From: Candidatus Altimarinota bacterium
Lineage (GTDB): Bacteria; Patescibacteriota; Gracilibacteria; BD1-5; UBA6164
NCBI GenBank assembly: GCA_028689115.1
Contig: JAQTWV010000001.1
Span: 721,539-785,538, forward strand
Reading direction: 5' to 3'
Length of the DNA: 64,000 bases
The notes under the pieces were generated by a model. The model did no database searches. It had not been told where the DNA came from and saw nothing but the letters and a program-made list of their open reading frames with translations. The translations under genes were made by a program, and so were the position numbers. This document shows positions 1,574-63,422 of this stretch, piece by piece; the first letter of the stretch is position 1, and every line of letters begins with the position of its first letter.

Positions 1574-1599
1574 AAATTTGGAGCGGGGGACGAGGTTTG
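1574..1599. repeat. 26-bp direct repeat, distal copy of tRNA 3' end
   Basis: Exact 26-bp copy of 1744-1769, which is the acceptor/T-arm 3' end of tRNA-Gly(UCA) plus CCA and a few flanking bases. The two copies are 170 bp apart in the same orientation, the arrangement left by site-specific integration at a tRNA 3' end, although the enclosed segment is too short to be an autonomous element. Confidence 0.8.
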
Positions 1600-1748: not shown

Positions 1749-1827
1749 TGGAGCGGGGGACGAGGTTTGAACTCGCACACCCAAGGGTTGAAGCCTTAGT
1801 ACACTCACTCTTTTATGTTACCCCCGC
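1749..1827 (-). tRNA. tRNA-Gly(UCA), decodes UGA as glycine
   Basis: A 76-nt tRNA body plus encoded CCA. The acceptor stem is GCGGGGG/CCCCCGC with U73, the anticodon stem is TAAGG/CCTTG with loop CTTCAAC giving anticodon UCA, and the T-arm is GCGAG-TTCAAAC-CTCGT. The acceptor, U73 and T-arm are those of bacterial tRNA-Gly. A tRNA-Trp(UCA) of the mycoplasma type or a tRNA-Sec with its long variable arm is excluded. The D-arm is weak (ACAT/GTGT) and its loop lacks the usual GG pair, so the fold may be unusual. This is the tRNA needed for the UGA-to-Gly reassignment seen in the window's proteins. Confidence 0.9.
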
Positions 1828-45055: not shown

Positions 45056-46492
45056 TTAAGGACAAGTTCACCATTGTGGTTGAACTGACGCATTTCATGA
45101 AAATCATGAATTACTATCAAATGACCATGGTTTAGAAGCTATTTTTGAAACGCACCAACCAGATATATTTTTATTAAATGCATTTGCTGCTAGAAACATT
45201 GCATCCATGTTAGTAACATTTGCTGTATCCCATAATGATATATCTTGATTAAATGCAAATGCACCATTAAACATCATACTCATAAAAGTAACATTTGATG
45301 TATTCCAACTTCATATATTTTGGTTAAATGATGTAGCATTAAAAAACATAGATGCCATTAATGTTACACTTGAAGTATCCCATCATGATATATCTTGATT
45401 AAATGCTCATGCAGAAGTAAACATTCATGCCATACTAACCACTTTTGAAGTATCCCATAATGATATATCTTGATTAAATGATGGTGCACTTGCAAATAGT
45501 CAAGTCATATTTATTACATTTGAAGTATTCCAACTTCATATATTTTGATTAAATGAATTTGCTGAAAAAAACATATTTGACATATTAGTTACTTTAGAAG
45601 TATCCCAACTTCATATATCCTGATTAAATGCATTTGCAAATGAAAACATATTTGACATATCAGTAACATTTGAAGTATCCCAATATCAAATATCTGAATT
45701 AAAACTTGTTTTAGAACTAAATAAATTTGCCATACTAGTAACTTGACCAGTAAAAATATCTGTTGCTGTGTAAGTTACTCATCAAACAGTTATTCAAGTA
45801 TCAATAGCAGTTTGAATTCAATAAGTTCATGTTCATGTTTCAACAATCAATAATCATTCACATCAATTCCATCATGTTTCTCATACAACTCAAATATTAG
45901 ATGGTACATAACAATTTGCTGCTCAAACTATAGGTGTTGTTCAACTATTTGCAATCAAATTATATGGCAAATCAACTCATCAATCTACTACAAAAAATGT
46001 ATTATCTGGATTATATGTTATACTTGGACTATCTGAAGATTGCATCTTGTAATAATTTCATTTTACCACTGCCGTATTTTCTTCTTCATTTACTGTTGAT
46101 GCTTGTGTGAATTTATATGCTCATGTTCCACTTCATCATACTGAGTATGAAAATACATAATCTCATTTTGTTACTGGATCTTTAAAACTATTTCCATCTT
46201 CTTTTAAAGCTAGAAAATTTGCTGTTCATTGGATTGAACTTCAACTATTTCAATTTATTGTTAATCATGAGTTTATTTTTATTGTATTTATTAAACTTGA
46301 TAGACTTGTTCATTTTGAACTTTCTATTCATATCTTTTTCATAATATTGTTTATATCACTTACTCTTTTTCAGTCTCTTGCTGATGTACTATATCAACTT
46401 AAATTTATAAACGCTATTGTTCATAGTATTGCTAATATTGTTATTACTACTATTAGTTCTACTAGTGTGAAGGCTTTGTTATATTTTTTCAT
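45056..46492 (-). CDS. Pilin-like adhesin with C-terminal BspA (DUF285) repeats
   Basis: A 478-residue protein. The N-terminus KKYNKAFTLVELIVVITILAIL is a type IV prepilin signal with Glu at +5; the first ~190 residues are nearly the same as in the FISUMP adhesin at 8905-10158. The C-terminal half instead contains about eight BspA-like units of about 25 residues (AFNQDIGSWDTSKVTNMSNMF), as in Mycoplasma/Entamoeba surface proteins that bind fibronectin or host surfaces, and it ends in WCVSKIASKPWSF ... PQWGTCP. The glycines of the repeats are written TGA. Expected role: pilus-like or surface-anchored adhesin. Confidence 0.88.
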
Positions 46493-48060: not shown

Positions 48061-48876
48061 TTATTTGTTAAATTCTAAAAAAATATCGCACCAAATAGAT
48101 ATATTTAAGTCTTCTCATCTAGTATTATCTCATATAGAATACTTAGAAAAAACTTGTATAATTAAGTCTTTATCATAACCTGCTTTTTCTAAGTTTTTAG
48201 ATAATTTTTTTCTTGGTTCACTAAATGCTTTTTTTATAAAAACCATAAAATCATTATCATTTATATGATTATATAAATTGTGAGTTTCAAAAAGTAAAAC
48301 ACTAGATTCTACTTTTGGAGCAGGAATAAAATTTTCTTTTCAAACAAAAAGTACTTCAGAAACTATGCATTTTTTAGAAACAAATAGCGATAAAACTGAA
48401 GTTTTTTCCTTTCATTTTCCAAGTATCTTATCTCAAACATCTTTTTGCATAAGTATAACCATAAACTCTGGCTTATTTTCAACATCATACAAAAAATGTC
48501 TCAATATAGGTGAAGTAATATAATATGGAATATTTGCTATAACGCTATAATCAGAAAAAGTAGGATTATATTTTAAAACGTCACAATTATTTATATTGAA
48601 ATCAATTCAATTTAAATCAAAATCTCAAGAATCTTTTCTTTTATTCAAGATTTCAATCATATCTTTATCTAATTCAACCAAATTTAGAGTTTTTGGTTTT
48701 TTATTAATAAGTTTTTCAGTCAATGCTCAATATCCTGGTCAAACCTCTATTATATTTTTTCAACTTATTTCTATAACTTCAGAAATAGAAGTAACTATAT
48801 TCTCATTTACTAAAAAATTTTGTCATAGTGATTTTTTAGCTTTTATATTGTATTTCCTAAGAATTTCTAATGTCAT
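48061..48876 (-). CDS. rsmA: 16S rRNA dimethyladenosine transferase RsmA
   Basis: A 271-residue SAM-dependent dimethyltransferase that modifies two adjacent adenines near the 3' end of 16S rRNA. Motifs: AKKSLGQNFLVNENI (start), IIEVGPGYGALTEKL (motif I, with TGA-coded Gly), VELDKDM, NCDVLKYN, VIANIPYYITSPILRHF (NIPY catalytic motif) and IPAPKVESSVLLF. The C-terminal domain is short and ends ISIWCDIFLEFNK. It is a complete, ordinary member of the family (also called KsgA). Confidence 0.93.
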
Positions 48877-49050: not shown

Positions 49051-49080
49051 TTGACAAAGGATTTCAAAATATGTTATCAT
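49051..49080 (+). promoter_or_regulatory. Strong sigma-70 promoter with extended -10
   Basis: TTGACA at 49051-49056, an 18-bp spacer and TATCAT at 49075-49080 with TG at 49072-49073. An A/T inverted repeat (ATACTTAAT ... ATTAAGTAT) lies just upstream. The 5' leader of about 80 nt has a G-rich patch (GCTGGGGG) and no Shine-Dalgarno sequence. Confidence 0.75.
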
Positions 49081-49164
49081 ACTAGTGCTGGGGGAAAAGA
49101 ACAAAATAATCTTTCTACCTTATTGCTAGCAAAAATTTATATTATTTATTTACATATTACGTTT

Positions 49165-49854
49165 ATGTTAAAAACAAAAATAAAAAAAGCTATAGCTATA
49201 GCTTCTATTGCAGGTATGACTGCTACAACTTTAGGTACTAGTTTAGGTACAACATTTGCTGCTACAGTTATAGGTTCTGGTAGTGTTGCTGGTACAGGTG
49301 CATTTAATTCTTCTGTTATTTGGGATGATGCATTTCCAGGGTTCGCTACTGGTTCAGTTTCTGGAATTAAAGTAAAAGCAAAAGTATTACCTACTTTAAA
49401 TATGACACTATCTGCTTCAGAAGTAAACTTAGGAACATTAGTTGCTGGAGTTCCTGCATCTGGAACAATTGATATCGAAGTTGGTACAAACGCTAAAGAT
49501 GGAGTTTCAATTACTGCTAGATCAGGAAGTGGATGATTAACTAATCTTGCTAATAATTCAGTTCAAATGAATAATCTAAGTACTGATGGTATTGCTGAAT
49601 CATATACATTTGCTTCAAATGCTAATGCTATTGATTCTACAGTTGCTGGATTTGTTAACACTACTGGTAACTTAGCATCTACAGAAGTTAATAATAACTC
49701 TACTGAACATGTTATTTATACTACAAATAAACCAGAAAAATTAGATTTTGCAGTTCAAGATTTAACTTTTACAGTTGCTGCTACTGCTGATGCACAAACA
49801 CAAGCTGGTGATTATGAAGATACAATTACATTTACTGTTACTGGTAAATTTTAA
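49165..49854 (+). CDS. Secreted surface protein, WxL-like beta-sandwich
   Basis: A 229-residue exported protein with a clear signal peptide (KIKKAIAIASIAGMTATTLGT ... TFA-AT near residue 32). The mature part is Thr/Ser/Val/Gly-rich beta structure with NLGTLVAGVPASGTIDIEV in the middle and AGDYEDTITFTVTGKF at the end, like WxL or spore-coat-U type domains. It is remarkable for codon use: about 23 glycines, only one written TGA (residue about 125), the rest GGT/GGA, along with preferred codons throughout. Together with the strong promoter this points to very high expression. It is probably partnered with the WxL-interacting-like protein encoded next. Confidence 0.75.
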
Positions 49855-49867
49855 TAAAAAAACATAC

Positions 49868-49895
49868 AAAAAGACTATTATTAGTCTTTTTTTTG
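49868..49895 (+). terminator. Terminator after the secreted surface protein
   Basis: AAAAAGACTA / TAGTCTTTTT stem with a T-run, 14 bp after the stop. Confidence 0.8.
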
Positions 49896-49952: not shown

Positions 49953-51353
49953 ATGAAAAAATATTTAAGTTTACTTATATTTATAAGTATAGTATCTTCC
50001 TTTATAAATAATGTTTTTGCTGCTAATGTTGACCTAGTAGTATCGCCAATAAAATATGAAATTACTTGAGCACCTTGAGAAAGTATAACAAAAACAGCTA
50101 CTTTAATAAATAAAACTAATGATACTTTATTAATTCATACTTGAAAATCAGATTTCATATCAAATGATACATCTGGTAATCCTGTATTTGTAAGAAAAAG
50201 TGAAATTGTATATAATGATCAAGAATTAGCAAATTGGATAAATATAAATTTAAATGATTTTTATATAGCTTGAAAAGAAGAAAAAGATATTGAATTTACA
50301 ATAAATATACCTACAGATGCAACTCCAGGGTGACATTATTGAGCTATATTTTTTAAAAATAATTGAAAAGAAAATTCAAGCTGATGATGACAAATAAAAC
50401 TTAACATTGATTATTGAGTATTACTTTTAGTAACTGTTGATTGAGAAATAATTGATAATTGAACACCTTGAGAACCAATTATAAATAATTGAAATGCTAC
50501 AACTTGACCTGCTTCAGGTTGAATTCAAAGAGATAGTTGTCCATTTTGAGATTTAACAAATAGTAATATAGACTGAAAATGTATAGATGATTTTTGATTA
50601 TGAAATATAATAAATGATATAAAATGAGAAAATAGTAATACTTGAACTTGAAGTAATACTAGTTGAACTTGAAGTAATGATAAAGAAGATTTTGTAATTG
50701 ATTTTTGAATTCCATTTAATAATGATTGAAATACACATATCAAACCAACTTGAAAAATAACACTTGTAGATGAAAATGGTAATCCTATAAAATGAGTTTG
50801 AAAAGAAATAATTTTAAATGATGAATGAGCTGTTATTTGAGAAAAAATTGTAGATTATCTACCTATAAATGATAATGGTTGAAATATATTACCAAATACT
50901 CAAAGAATTTTTGAATCAGAATGGAAAGGTTTTCCATATGAAGCATATGATGAAAATTGAAAAAAAATAATAAAATATTGGTCACCATCAGATTATTATT
51001 CTAGAAAAAATATAGAAGATAAAAAATTTATTTTCCCATGGCAAAGAATAAATGAAAATGTTGAACAAAAACAAATTAAAGCATTAATAGAATTAGCATA
51101 CAAAAATTATAAATGAGAGGAAATTAAATTTAACTCAGCTAAAGAATTTAGTGTAGACTATATAGTAAAATCAGTTTGAATTAATCCATATTTTGTTATT
51201 TGATTTATATTTAGTTTATGAATATTTTGGTTCTTTTTCATTATTTGGAGAAGAAAAACAAAGAAAAAATGTCATAATTGTAAAAAAAGAATTGATAAAG
51301 ATATGAAGATTTGTCCATATTGTTGAGAAAAACAAAAAGATAAGAAGAAATAA
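49953..51353 (+). CDS. WxL-interacting-like (DUF916) surface protein with zinc-ribbon tail
   Basis: A 466-residue membrane protein. Signal peptide residues 1-23 (SLLIFISIVSSFINNVFA-AN). Residues about 24-160 resemble DUF916/WxL-interacting domains (NVDLVVSPIKYEITGAPGESITKTATLINKTND, DATPGGHYGAIFFK). A Ser/Asn/Gly/Thr linker and a second beta domain (GKITLVDENGNPIKGVGKEI) follow. One membrane helix near residue 410 (YFVIGFIFSLGIFWFFFIIW) leads to a cytosolic zinc ribbon (CHNCKKRIDKDMKICPYCGEK). It lies 98 bp after the secreted WxL-like protein, past a terminator. It may hold that protein at the surface. Confidence 0.7.
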
Positions 51354-57910: not shown

Positions 57911-57987
57911 AGCGGGTGTAGCTCAATTGGCTAGAGCATCTGCCTTCCAAGCAGAGGGTTAAGGGTTCGAGTCCCTTTACCCGCTCC
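57911..57987 (+). tRNA. tRNA-Gly(UCC)
   Basis: 74-nt body plus CCA. Acceptor GCGGGTG/TACCCGC with U73, anticodon loop CTTCCAA (anticodon UCC), T-arm AAGGG-TTCGAGT-CCCTT. A normal tRNA-Gly for GGN codons, the counterpart of the UCA-reading one at 1749-1827. Confidence 0.93.
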
Positions 57988-57996
57988 ATTTAAAAA

Positions 57997-62471: not shown

Positions 62472-62526
62472 AATTTTTATTATTAATATAAATTAAAATA
62501 ATAATAACATATATATTTGAAAAAAG

Positions 62527-62559
62527 AAAAAAAGCTGCATATTTTTAGCAGCTTTTTTT
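62527..62559 (-). terminator. Terminator after the foreign-looking gene
   Basis: AAAAAAAGCTGC / GCAGCTTTTTTT stem about 15 bp past the TGA stop of the gene at 62574. A further small hairpin (ATCGGA-TGAATAA-TCCGAT) includes that stop. Confidence 0.85.
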
Positions 62560-62573
62560 AAGAATCGGATTAT

Positions 62574-63422
62574 TCATCCGATTTTTTTTGCAGATTCACC
62601 ATCACGAACCAATTTAATTTGGTCCAGAAGTTCAAATGCGCGATTTTCTTCATGAGTCTTGTGAAGACGAACGTTAAGTTGCCCCCACAAACGGTCAAAA
62701 GTACTTGCCGGAAGCCCCATGATGCTGTATGGTTCATCTGGCAATTTCACTGGCAACCACGTACAACTGCTCAAAATGTGCTTGAGTTCATCTTCATTAT
62801 TGACAGATGAATGTTCTACTGAAGCTGCAACTAGTTGCACGATGTTGTCAGCCAAAGGTGGCTCTTCAACAACAGCTGGGGCAGGAACTTCCGCCTGAGA
62901 AACTTCGACTTGAGTCGTAGCTTGTTGCAAAACCTTGACGAATTCTTCAGGCCCTTTTGCAAGAGCATTCTGAAGAAACTGCTTGGTATCAGCATCAAAA
63001 CGACAACTTGCCGAAGCAAGTTCAGCCTTAACAGCTTCGATGATTTCATTGATTTCACCTTGCTGTGCATTGGCTGCTTTGACAAAACTTGCTGCAGACA
63101 TCAGTTGTGCAAGACCAAAGCCTTGCTGCTGAGAACGCTCGTAAACCTTGGAAAAAATTGCGGAAAGTTCCTCTTCGTTTCCAGAAATGGGCTTAGCTGC
63201 ATGTGCAGCATCAACTTGGGAAATAGCTTTTTGAAAAATATTTTTCATGGCAAAATCTCCTTCTTCAACAAAAAAATTGACAATATTTTCTAAACTCTTT
63301 CTTTTTTTCCTGTTATTTAAGACATCTATAACCTTCAAAATAAGGAAAAGAATCAAAAAAAACAAGATAGTAGAAAAAATCAAAAAATCAGGGGAATGAA
63401 AAAACATGCTCCATTGGTCCAC
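62574..63422 (-). CDS. Foreign-looking gene with a standard-code UGA stop
   Basis: A 282-residue ORF unlike its neighbours: G+C clearly higher, ten Gly codons all GGN and no TGA until the terminal TGA (62574-62576), Ala/Val/Arg codons with C and G at third position. It has a textbook ribosome site (AGGAGG six bases before the GTG start), and another SD (AAGGAGA) lies in front of an internal ATG at 63246-63248. Domains: one N-terminal membrane helix (FLIFSTILFFLILFLILKVI), a charged segment, then a soluble helical part with no known family (Ala- and Gln-rich, ending RLWGQLNVRLHKTHEENRAFELLDQI). If TGA is read as Gly, it runs on for about 28 codons to a TAA. Confidence 0.7.
   Translation of the reverse strand: MDQWSMFFHSPDFLIFSTILFFLILFLILKVIDVLNNRKKRKSLENIVNFFVEEGDFAMKNIFQKAISQVDAAHAAKPISGNEEELSAIFSKVYERSQQQGFGLAQLMSAASFVKAANAQQGEINEIIEAVKAELASASCRFDADTKQFLQNALAKGPEEFVKVLQQATTQVEVSQAEVPAPAVVEEPPLADNIVQLVAASVEHSSVNNEDELKHILSSCTWLPVKLPDEPYSIMGLPASTFDRLWGQLNVRLHKTHEENRAFELLDQIKLVRDGESAKKIG

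Follow-up and report, generated by a model that had tools for sequence, protein, structure and literature searches.

In the trypanosomatid Blastocrithidia, a eukaryote in which all three stop codons are reassigned, the reassigned codons are depleted in highly expressed genes, including those of cytosolic ribosomal proteins (PMC12153298). In the ciliate Oligohymenophorea sp. PL0344, where UAA and UAG encode Lys and Glu and UGA is still a stop, the reassigned codons are likewise rarer in highly expressed genes, with inefficiency as one suggested cause (PMC10553269). As far as the accessible sections of these two papers extend, the principle of avoidance is already published for two eukaryotes. 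For bacteria with code 25 (UGA = Gly), the available part of one study asked how TGA usage in hosts and phages is related to translation efficiency and counted high genomic TGA in favour of efficient decoding (PMC10746230). Neither that part nor the corresponding parts of PMC4032931, PMC6851277, PMC8629427, PMC11452946, PMC13092985 and PMC9866869 showed code-25 avoidance, and we found no such report in the literature searched, which did not include Campbell 2013, a paper that could contain one.

Here, we describe a case in a bacterium with a single reassigned codon, read as glycine, in which, unlike in Blastocrithidia (judging from the sections available), the avoided codon is the commonest for its amino acid. 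The bacteria are the same as those of PMC10746230, and their top genes point the opposite way from the expectation in the accessible part of that paper: what began as one odd gene is a pattern across the class, in which the commonest glycine codon looks disfavoured. The pattern also provides a bacterial case for the question of whether a reassigned stop codon can become a fully equal sense codon.

A genome with UGA as its commonest glycine codon

The window, i.e., the whole 64,000-nucleotide stretch analysed here (G000:C3:721539-785538), belongs to a code-25 gracilibacterial genome of 1.23 Mb (four contigs, 80% complete; G000). In 13 stretches of 20 kb each from family f1, the coding fraction was 0.68–0.96 under code 25 versus 0.00–0.09 under code 11, and the frames of the window are likewise open only with TGA as a sense codon. 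We sampled ~37% of the genome, namely the window and 20 further stretches, some targeted at elongation-factor or ribosomal matches and the remainder at approximately even spacing, and took the longest open frames as genes. Among sampled ORFs of at least 150 aa, TGA makes up 5886 of 8185 glycine codons, and GGC is almost missing (37 of 8185).

The genome has a single match to the release-factor family PF00472, which we take to be RF1-like from the P-x-T motif in its sequence; RF2, whose absence is a criterion of code 25, was not among the matches in this 80% complete assembly. One release-factor match was also the rule in the wider set (66 of the 68 genomes with any match). A second match, without TGA, occurs in a 2.7 Mb genome bin (G225:C153:10152-10478) and is possibly contamination by a standard-code contig.

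The surface-protein gene and its locus

A preliminary description had singled out one gene of the window (P0001; Table 1) as almost free of TGA amid TGA-rich neighbours, and both observations hold. Its 23 glycine codons comprise 13 GGT, 8 GGA, 1 GGG, 1 TGA and no GGC, whereas TGA accounts for 821 of 1087 glycine codons in 50 other window genes (≥100 aa, ≥8 Gly) and also dominates the gene directly downstream. A beta-binomial fit to the sampled genes gives at most 1 TGA in 23 a probability of 1.7e-5 (~0.005 when corrected for 317 genes). Among the 317 sampled genes of the genome (≥8 Gly, ≥100 aa), P0001 has the third lowest TGA share, after L19 (0/9) and a 1092-aa S-layer-like protein with an SLH domain (1/78; L012:3698-6976, corresponding to G000:C4:23698-26976); it is followed, in ascending order, by S2, L13, an import-like ORF, S11, S1, EF-Tu, S9 and EF-G. 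The depletion is evident at the level of single genes.

Table 1. Coordinates of the features discussed (positions in the window)
Feature	Position	Strand	Remarks
tRNA(UCA), presumed UGA-glycine decoder	1749..1827	-	45.9 bits against the tRNA model
ksgA/rsmA-type methyltransferase gene (RrnaAD)	48061..48876	-	syntenic anchor; divergent from P0001
Extended -10 promoter, TTGACA-18-TATCAT	49051..49080	+	conserved at four orthologous loci
Palindrome TTGCTAGCAA in the mRNA leader	49123..49132	+	perfect; conserved in four orthologous leaders
Exported surface-protein gene P0001	49165..49854	+	229 aa; 1 TGA among 23 Gly codons
Single TGA codon, Gly124	49534..49536	+	orthologue column: TGA 15/30, GGN 15/30
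Terminator-like hairpin	49870..49894	+	8-bp stem, 4-nt loop, T run; read from the sequence
Gene with WxLIP-like domain and zinc ribbon	49953..51353	+	TGA-rich (40/46)
tRNA-Gly(UCC), presumed GGN decoder	57912..57988	+	70.8 bits
Foreign-looking ORF	62493-63407	-	GC 0.38, GC3 0.31; 1/11 TGA; proxy rank 316th of 317

The encoded protein looks as if it carries a signal peptide; it has no Pfam match above cut-off, and a structure prediction from seven sequences reached a mean pLDDT of only 34. Its promoter, which the preliminary description had called the best in the window, is a strong and conserved site but not uniquely the best: nine further window sites share its score of 11/12, and the extended TG is found in two of these 11/12 sites, that of P0001 among them. 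With the -35 box and extended -10 conserved upstream of four orthologues, the promoter does look real. The palindrome in the leader occurs once in the window and not at all in the 20 other sampled stretches. Together, the conserved promoter and the terminator-like hairpin suggest that P0001 has its own transcript, and the gene looks monocistronic; a terminator scan that required three G-C pairs did not return this hairpin.

The locus resembles WxL-type surface systems with a WxLIP partner in that an exported protein adjoins a WxLIP-like gene. It differs in that neither P0001 nor five scanned orthologues gave a WxL-domain match in Pfam, and in the terminal zinc ribbon of the partner protein. 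A WxLIP match above the Pfam cut-off was obtained for two of six neighbour proteins (L075, L077), with the window's own below it (17.8 vs 27.3). Elsewhere in the window, 45056-46492 (minus strand) encodes a DUF285 repeat protein whose N-terminus carries a pilin methylation motif.

Genes of presumed abundant proteins are poor in UGA

The preliminary description had offered a less efficient decoding of UGA, avoided by abundant proteins, as one explanation, against which ordinary TGA use in ribosomal-protein and EF-Tu genes would speak. TGA is instead low in these genes: 15 ribosomal proteins (recovered out of 44 in an E. coli reference list), EF-Tu and EF-G together have 52 TGA among 250 glycine codons, compared to a share of 0.73 in 313 other genes of the genome. 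The genome yielded no L2, and S10 was the only member of the S10 cluster in the sampled stretches, which thus cover this cluster little. The depletion is milder in some ribosomal proteins (rpsL 6/14, rpsD 5/10); DnaK is intermediate (21/57), and housekeeping genes whose products are presumably of moderate abundance come closer to the background (NusG 13/16, IF2 47/73, RpoA 21/33, PNPase 39/65). High expression is read here from gene identity; P0001 and the S-layer, EF-Tu, EF-G and ribosomal-protein genes are probably the most expressed. With EF-Tu, EF-G, the ribosomal proteins and the putative S-layer protein all poor in TGA, the expression-linked avoidance gains support, and TGA poverty becomes a sequence-only way to nominate abundant proteins of uncultured bacteria, the putative S-layer protein and P0001 being examples.

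The broader suggestion that UGA acts as an expression-level signal in code-25 genomes failed in its graded form. As a codon-adaptation proxy, we used a score trained on the ribosomal genes with glycine omitted, which ranked the S-layer-like protein 2nd and P0001 10th of 317, the threonine codons of the latter being off the ribosomal pattern (ACA 18/34). Across 306 non-ribosomal genes, the proxy was weakly related to TGA share (rho -0.12, p 0.04), and only the top decile departs (TGA 0.49 vs 0.74–0.78 below). Given that the departure is confined to this decile, and that it is weak or absent in the ribosomal proteins of a second family (f13, below), the UGA share singles out the most extreme genes but does not serve as a graded measure of expression. 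Position within the gene has a small effect (TGA 0.67 to 0.75 across bins) and context a modest one (0.60 preceding another glycine, 0.53 preceding Met).

The depletion recurs across genomes

The same pattern recurs in other genomes of the order. In all 28 testable genomes (≥40 background Gly; p<0.01 in 24, Fisher), TGA makes up a smaller fraction of the glycine codons of EF-Tu than of other ORFs, with 139/1116 versus 13148/23213 TGA when pooled; in G034 EF-Tu is not significantly lower (24/39 vs 36/50). For ribosomal proteins, 12 of the 16 genomes with at least 8 ribosomal Gly show a lower share (142/410 vs 10541/17016). Homologues of the S-layer protein, present in 68 of 77 genomes, have 139 TGA in 2402 glycine codons versus 554 in 1085 for flanking ORFs, and are lower in each of the 29 loci whose flanks sufficed for comparison. 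In these genomes, short SLH matches frequently contain several TGAs within ~170 aa. In family f13 of the same class, EF-Tu is lower in 7 of 7 genomes (p<0.01 each; pooled 22/263 vs 1372/3228), and ribosomal proteins in 5 of 7 (pooled 417/1350 vs 1077/2315), with G078 equal (162/235 vs 494/730) and G185 higher. Four genomes were left out of the EF-Tu comparisons, G059 and G072 for want of a usable background and G182 and G141 for want of an EF-Tu locus.

A protein search showed that 51 of the order's 77 genomes have an orthologue of P0001, as do six named contigs, four of them titled Gracilibacteria; identities are mostly 45–88% among the matches listed. The methyltransferase, P0001 and WxLIP-like genes are consecutive in L073, L074 and L076; in L075 and L077, one extra gene intervenes before the P0001 orthologue, and L078 is a short contig. 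At 29 of the 30 loci, the flanking ORFs have the higher TGA share; the exception is L200 (6/19 vs 8/28), where the match lies near a contig end.

The single TGA codon of P0001 falls on a position that is a glycine in relatives too, and the remaining columns of the 30 orthologues have 0 to 6 TGA each. Residual TGAs cluster at particular columns beyond within-gene shuffles in both P0001 orthologues and EF-Tu, and no such clustering was seen for S-layer TGAs. GGT and GGA cluster by column as well (GGA in P0001 by variance only), hence we draw no conclusion on programmed sites.

Probable translational selection and the decoding of UGA

We consider it probable (about 75%) that translational selection keeps UGA-Gly out of the most expressed genes. 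P0001 would then be among the cell's most abundant proteins, made from its own transcript under a strong conserved promoter, and selection for translation would favour GGU and GGA over UGA in P0001 as in the EF-Tu, EF-G, ribosomal-protein and S-layer genes. Elsewhere, AT mutation pressure together with weak selection would let UGA reach ~73% of glycines. As the most likely cause, the single tRNA(UCA), which does not have the usual GG in its D-loop, would decode UGA slowly or be limited in supply; termination at UGA appears less likely than poor decoding because the only release factor found is of the RF1 type.

The tRNA complement is consistent with this proposal. One UCC and one UCA tRNA are present both in the genome studied (30 Rfam matches) and in the single-contig relative G159 (34 matches, of which the UCA tRNA is the weakest). 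No tRNA-Gly(GCC) was among these matches in G159 or in our 80% complete assembly, and GGU therefore seems to be read by superwobble. The tRNA(UCA) has G1:C72, C2:G71, G3:C70 and U73, as glycine identity requires by the criteria in the available part of PMC8629427, and AGU in its D-loop in place of the model's GGU. Across the order, 66 of 77 genomes have a match to it, full-length in 64 of them and single in all of these but G234 (two); in G190 and G207 the match is a 29-base fragment only.

Alternative explanations

Among the alternatives, accuracy survives best, although we regard it as unlikely. UGA shares two bases with the Trp codon UGG and might be misread, e.g., by tRNA-Trp, and would then be shunned where errors are costly. 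Conserved glycines of non-ribosomal genes are indeed slightly poorer in TGA (Akashi test; MH odds ratio 0.82, z -1.9), but the effect is not significant over all genes (0.86, z -1.5) and is reversed in ribosomal and elongation-factor genes (1.66, z 1.2), and the tRNA-Trp has a normal anticodon stem of 5 bp. With no clear protection of conserved glycines, accuracy seems less likely to be the main force.

A second possibility, that base or amino-acid composition alone drives GC-richer genes to GGN, is improbable. TGA share does fall with GC at codon positions 1–2 (GC12; rho -0.50 across 306 non-ribosomal genes), so amino-acid composition contributes, but a TGA share of 0.68 persists in non-ribosomal genes matched for GC12. 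In a quasi-binomial model with GC12 and GC3 (321 genes, P0001 and the S-layer-like gene excluded), the ribosomal term was -1.94 (t -8.3). Synonymous GC3 shows no relation to TGA share (rho 0.08); outside glycine it is 0.072 in ribosomal versus 0.082 in other genes, and the ribosomal genes shift toward the AT-rich codons AGA (Arg), AAA (Lys), GAA (Glu) and TTA (Leu). Synonymous composition is thereby excluded as the source of the depletion.

EF-Tu and ribosomal proteins evolve slowly, and conserved genes could in principle retain GGN codons from before the reassignment. This historical lag is very improbable, given that the S-layer and surface proteins, both of which diverge much faster (identity mostly 35–60% and 45–88%, respectively, among the matches listed), avoid UGA too. 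In addition, S-layer columns with glycine in at most 10% of homologues have 16 TGA in 267, versus 38 in 789 for columns above 70%; rare-glycine columns are thus as TGA-poor as conserved ones, which excludes retained ancestral codons.

Least probable of all is the other reading of the preliminary description, import of P0001 from a standard-code organism with UGA not yet accumulated: its place amid TGA-rich neighbours and the import-like ORF elsewhere in the window would fit, but the deep orthology of P0001, with a TGA poverty that its orthologues share, excludes import, and the largely kept gene order, the GC3 of 0.05 and the high proxy rank of P0001 also stand against it.

Possible two-tier decoding

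Under translational selection against UGA, one could further imagine two tiers of decoding, in which tRNA-Gly(UCC) serves the few most abundant proteins and the degenerate tRNA(UCA) supplies the bulk of glycines on UGA. We put this forward tentatively, as a doubtful extension. If true, the upper limit on a gene's elongation would depend on its UGA content, and genes free of UGA, code-11-compatible phage genes among them, would get privileged access to the fast pool. As a separate observation, the window contains a 21-base exact copy of the tRNA(UCA) 3' end (1579-1599, minus strand), ~150 bases from the tRNA gene, which is possibly an attachment-site remnant; a similar 3'-end copy lies close to the tRNA in G178.
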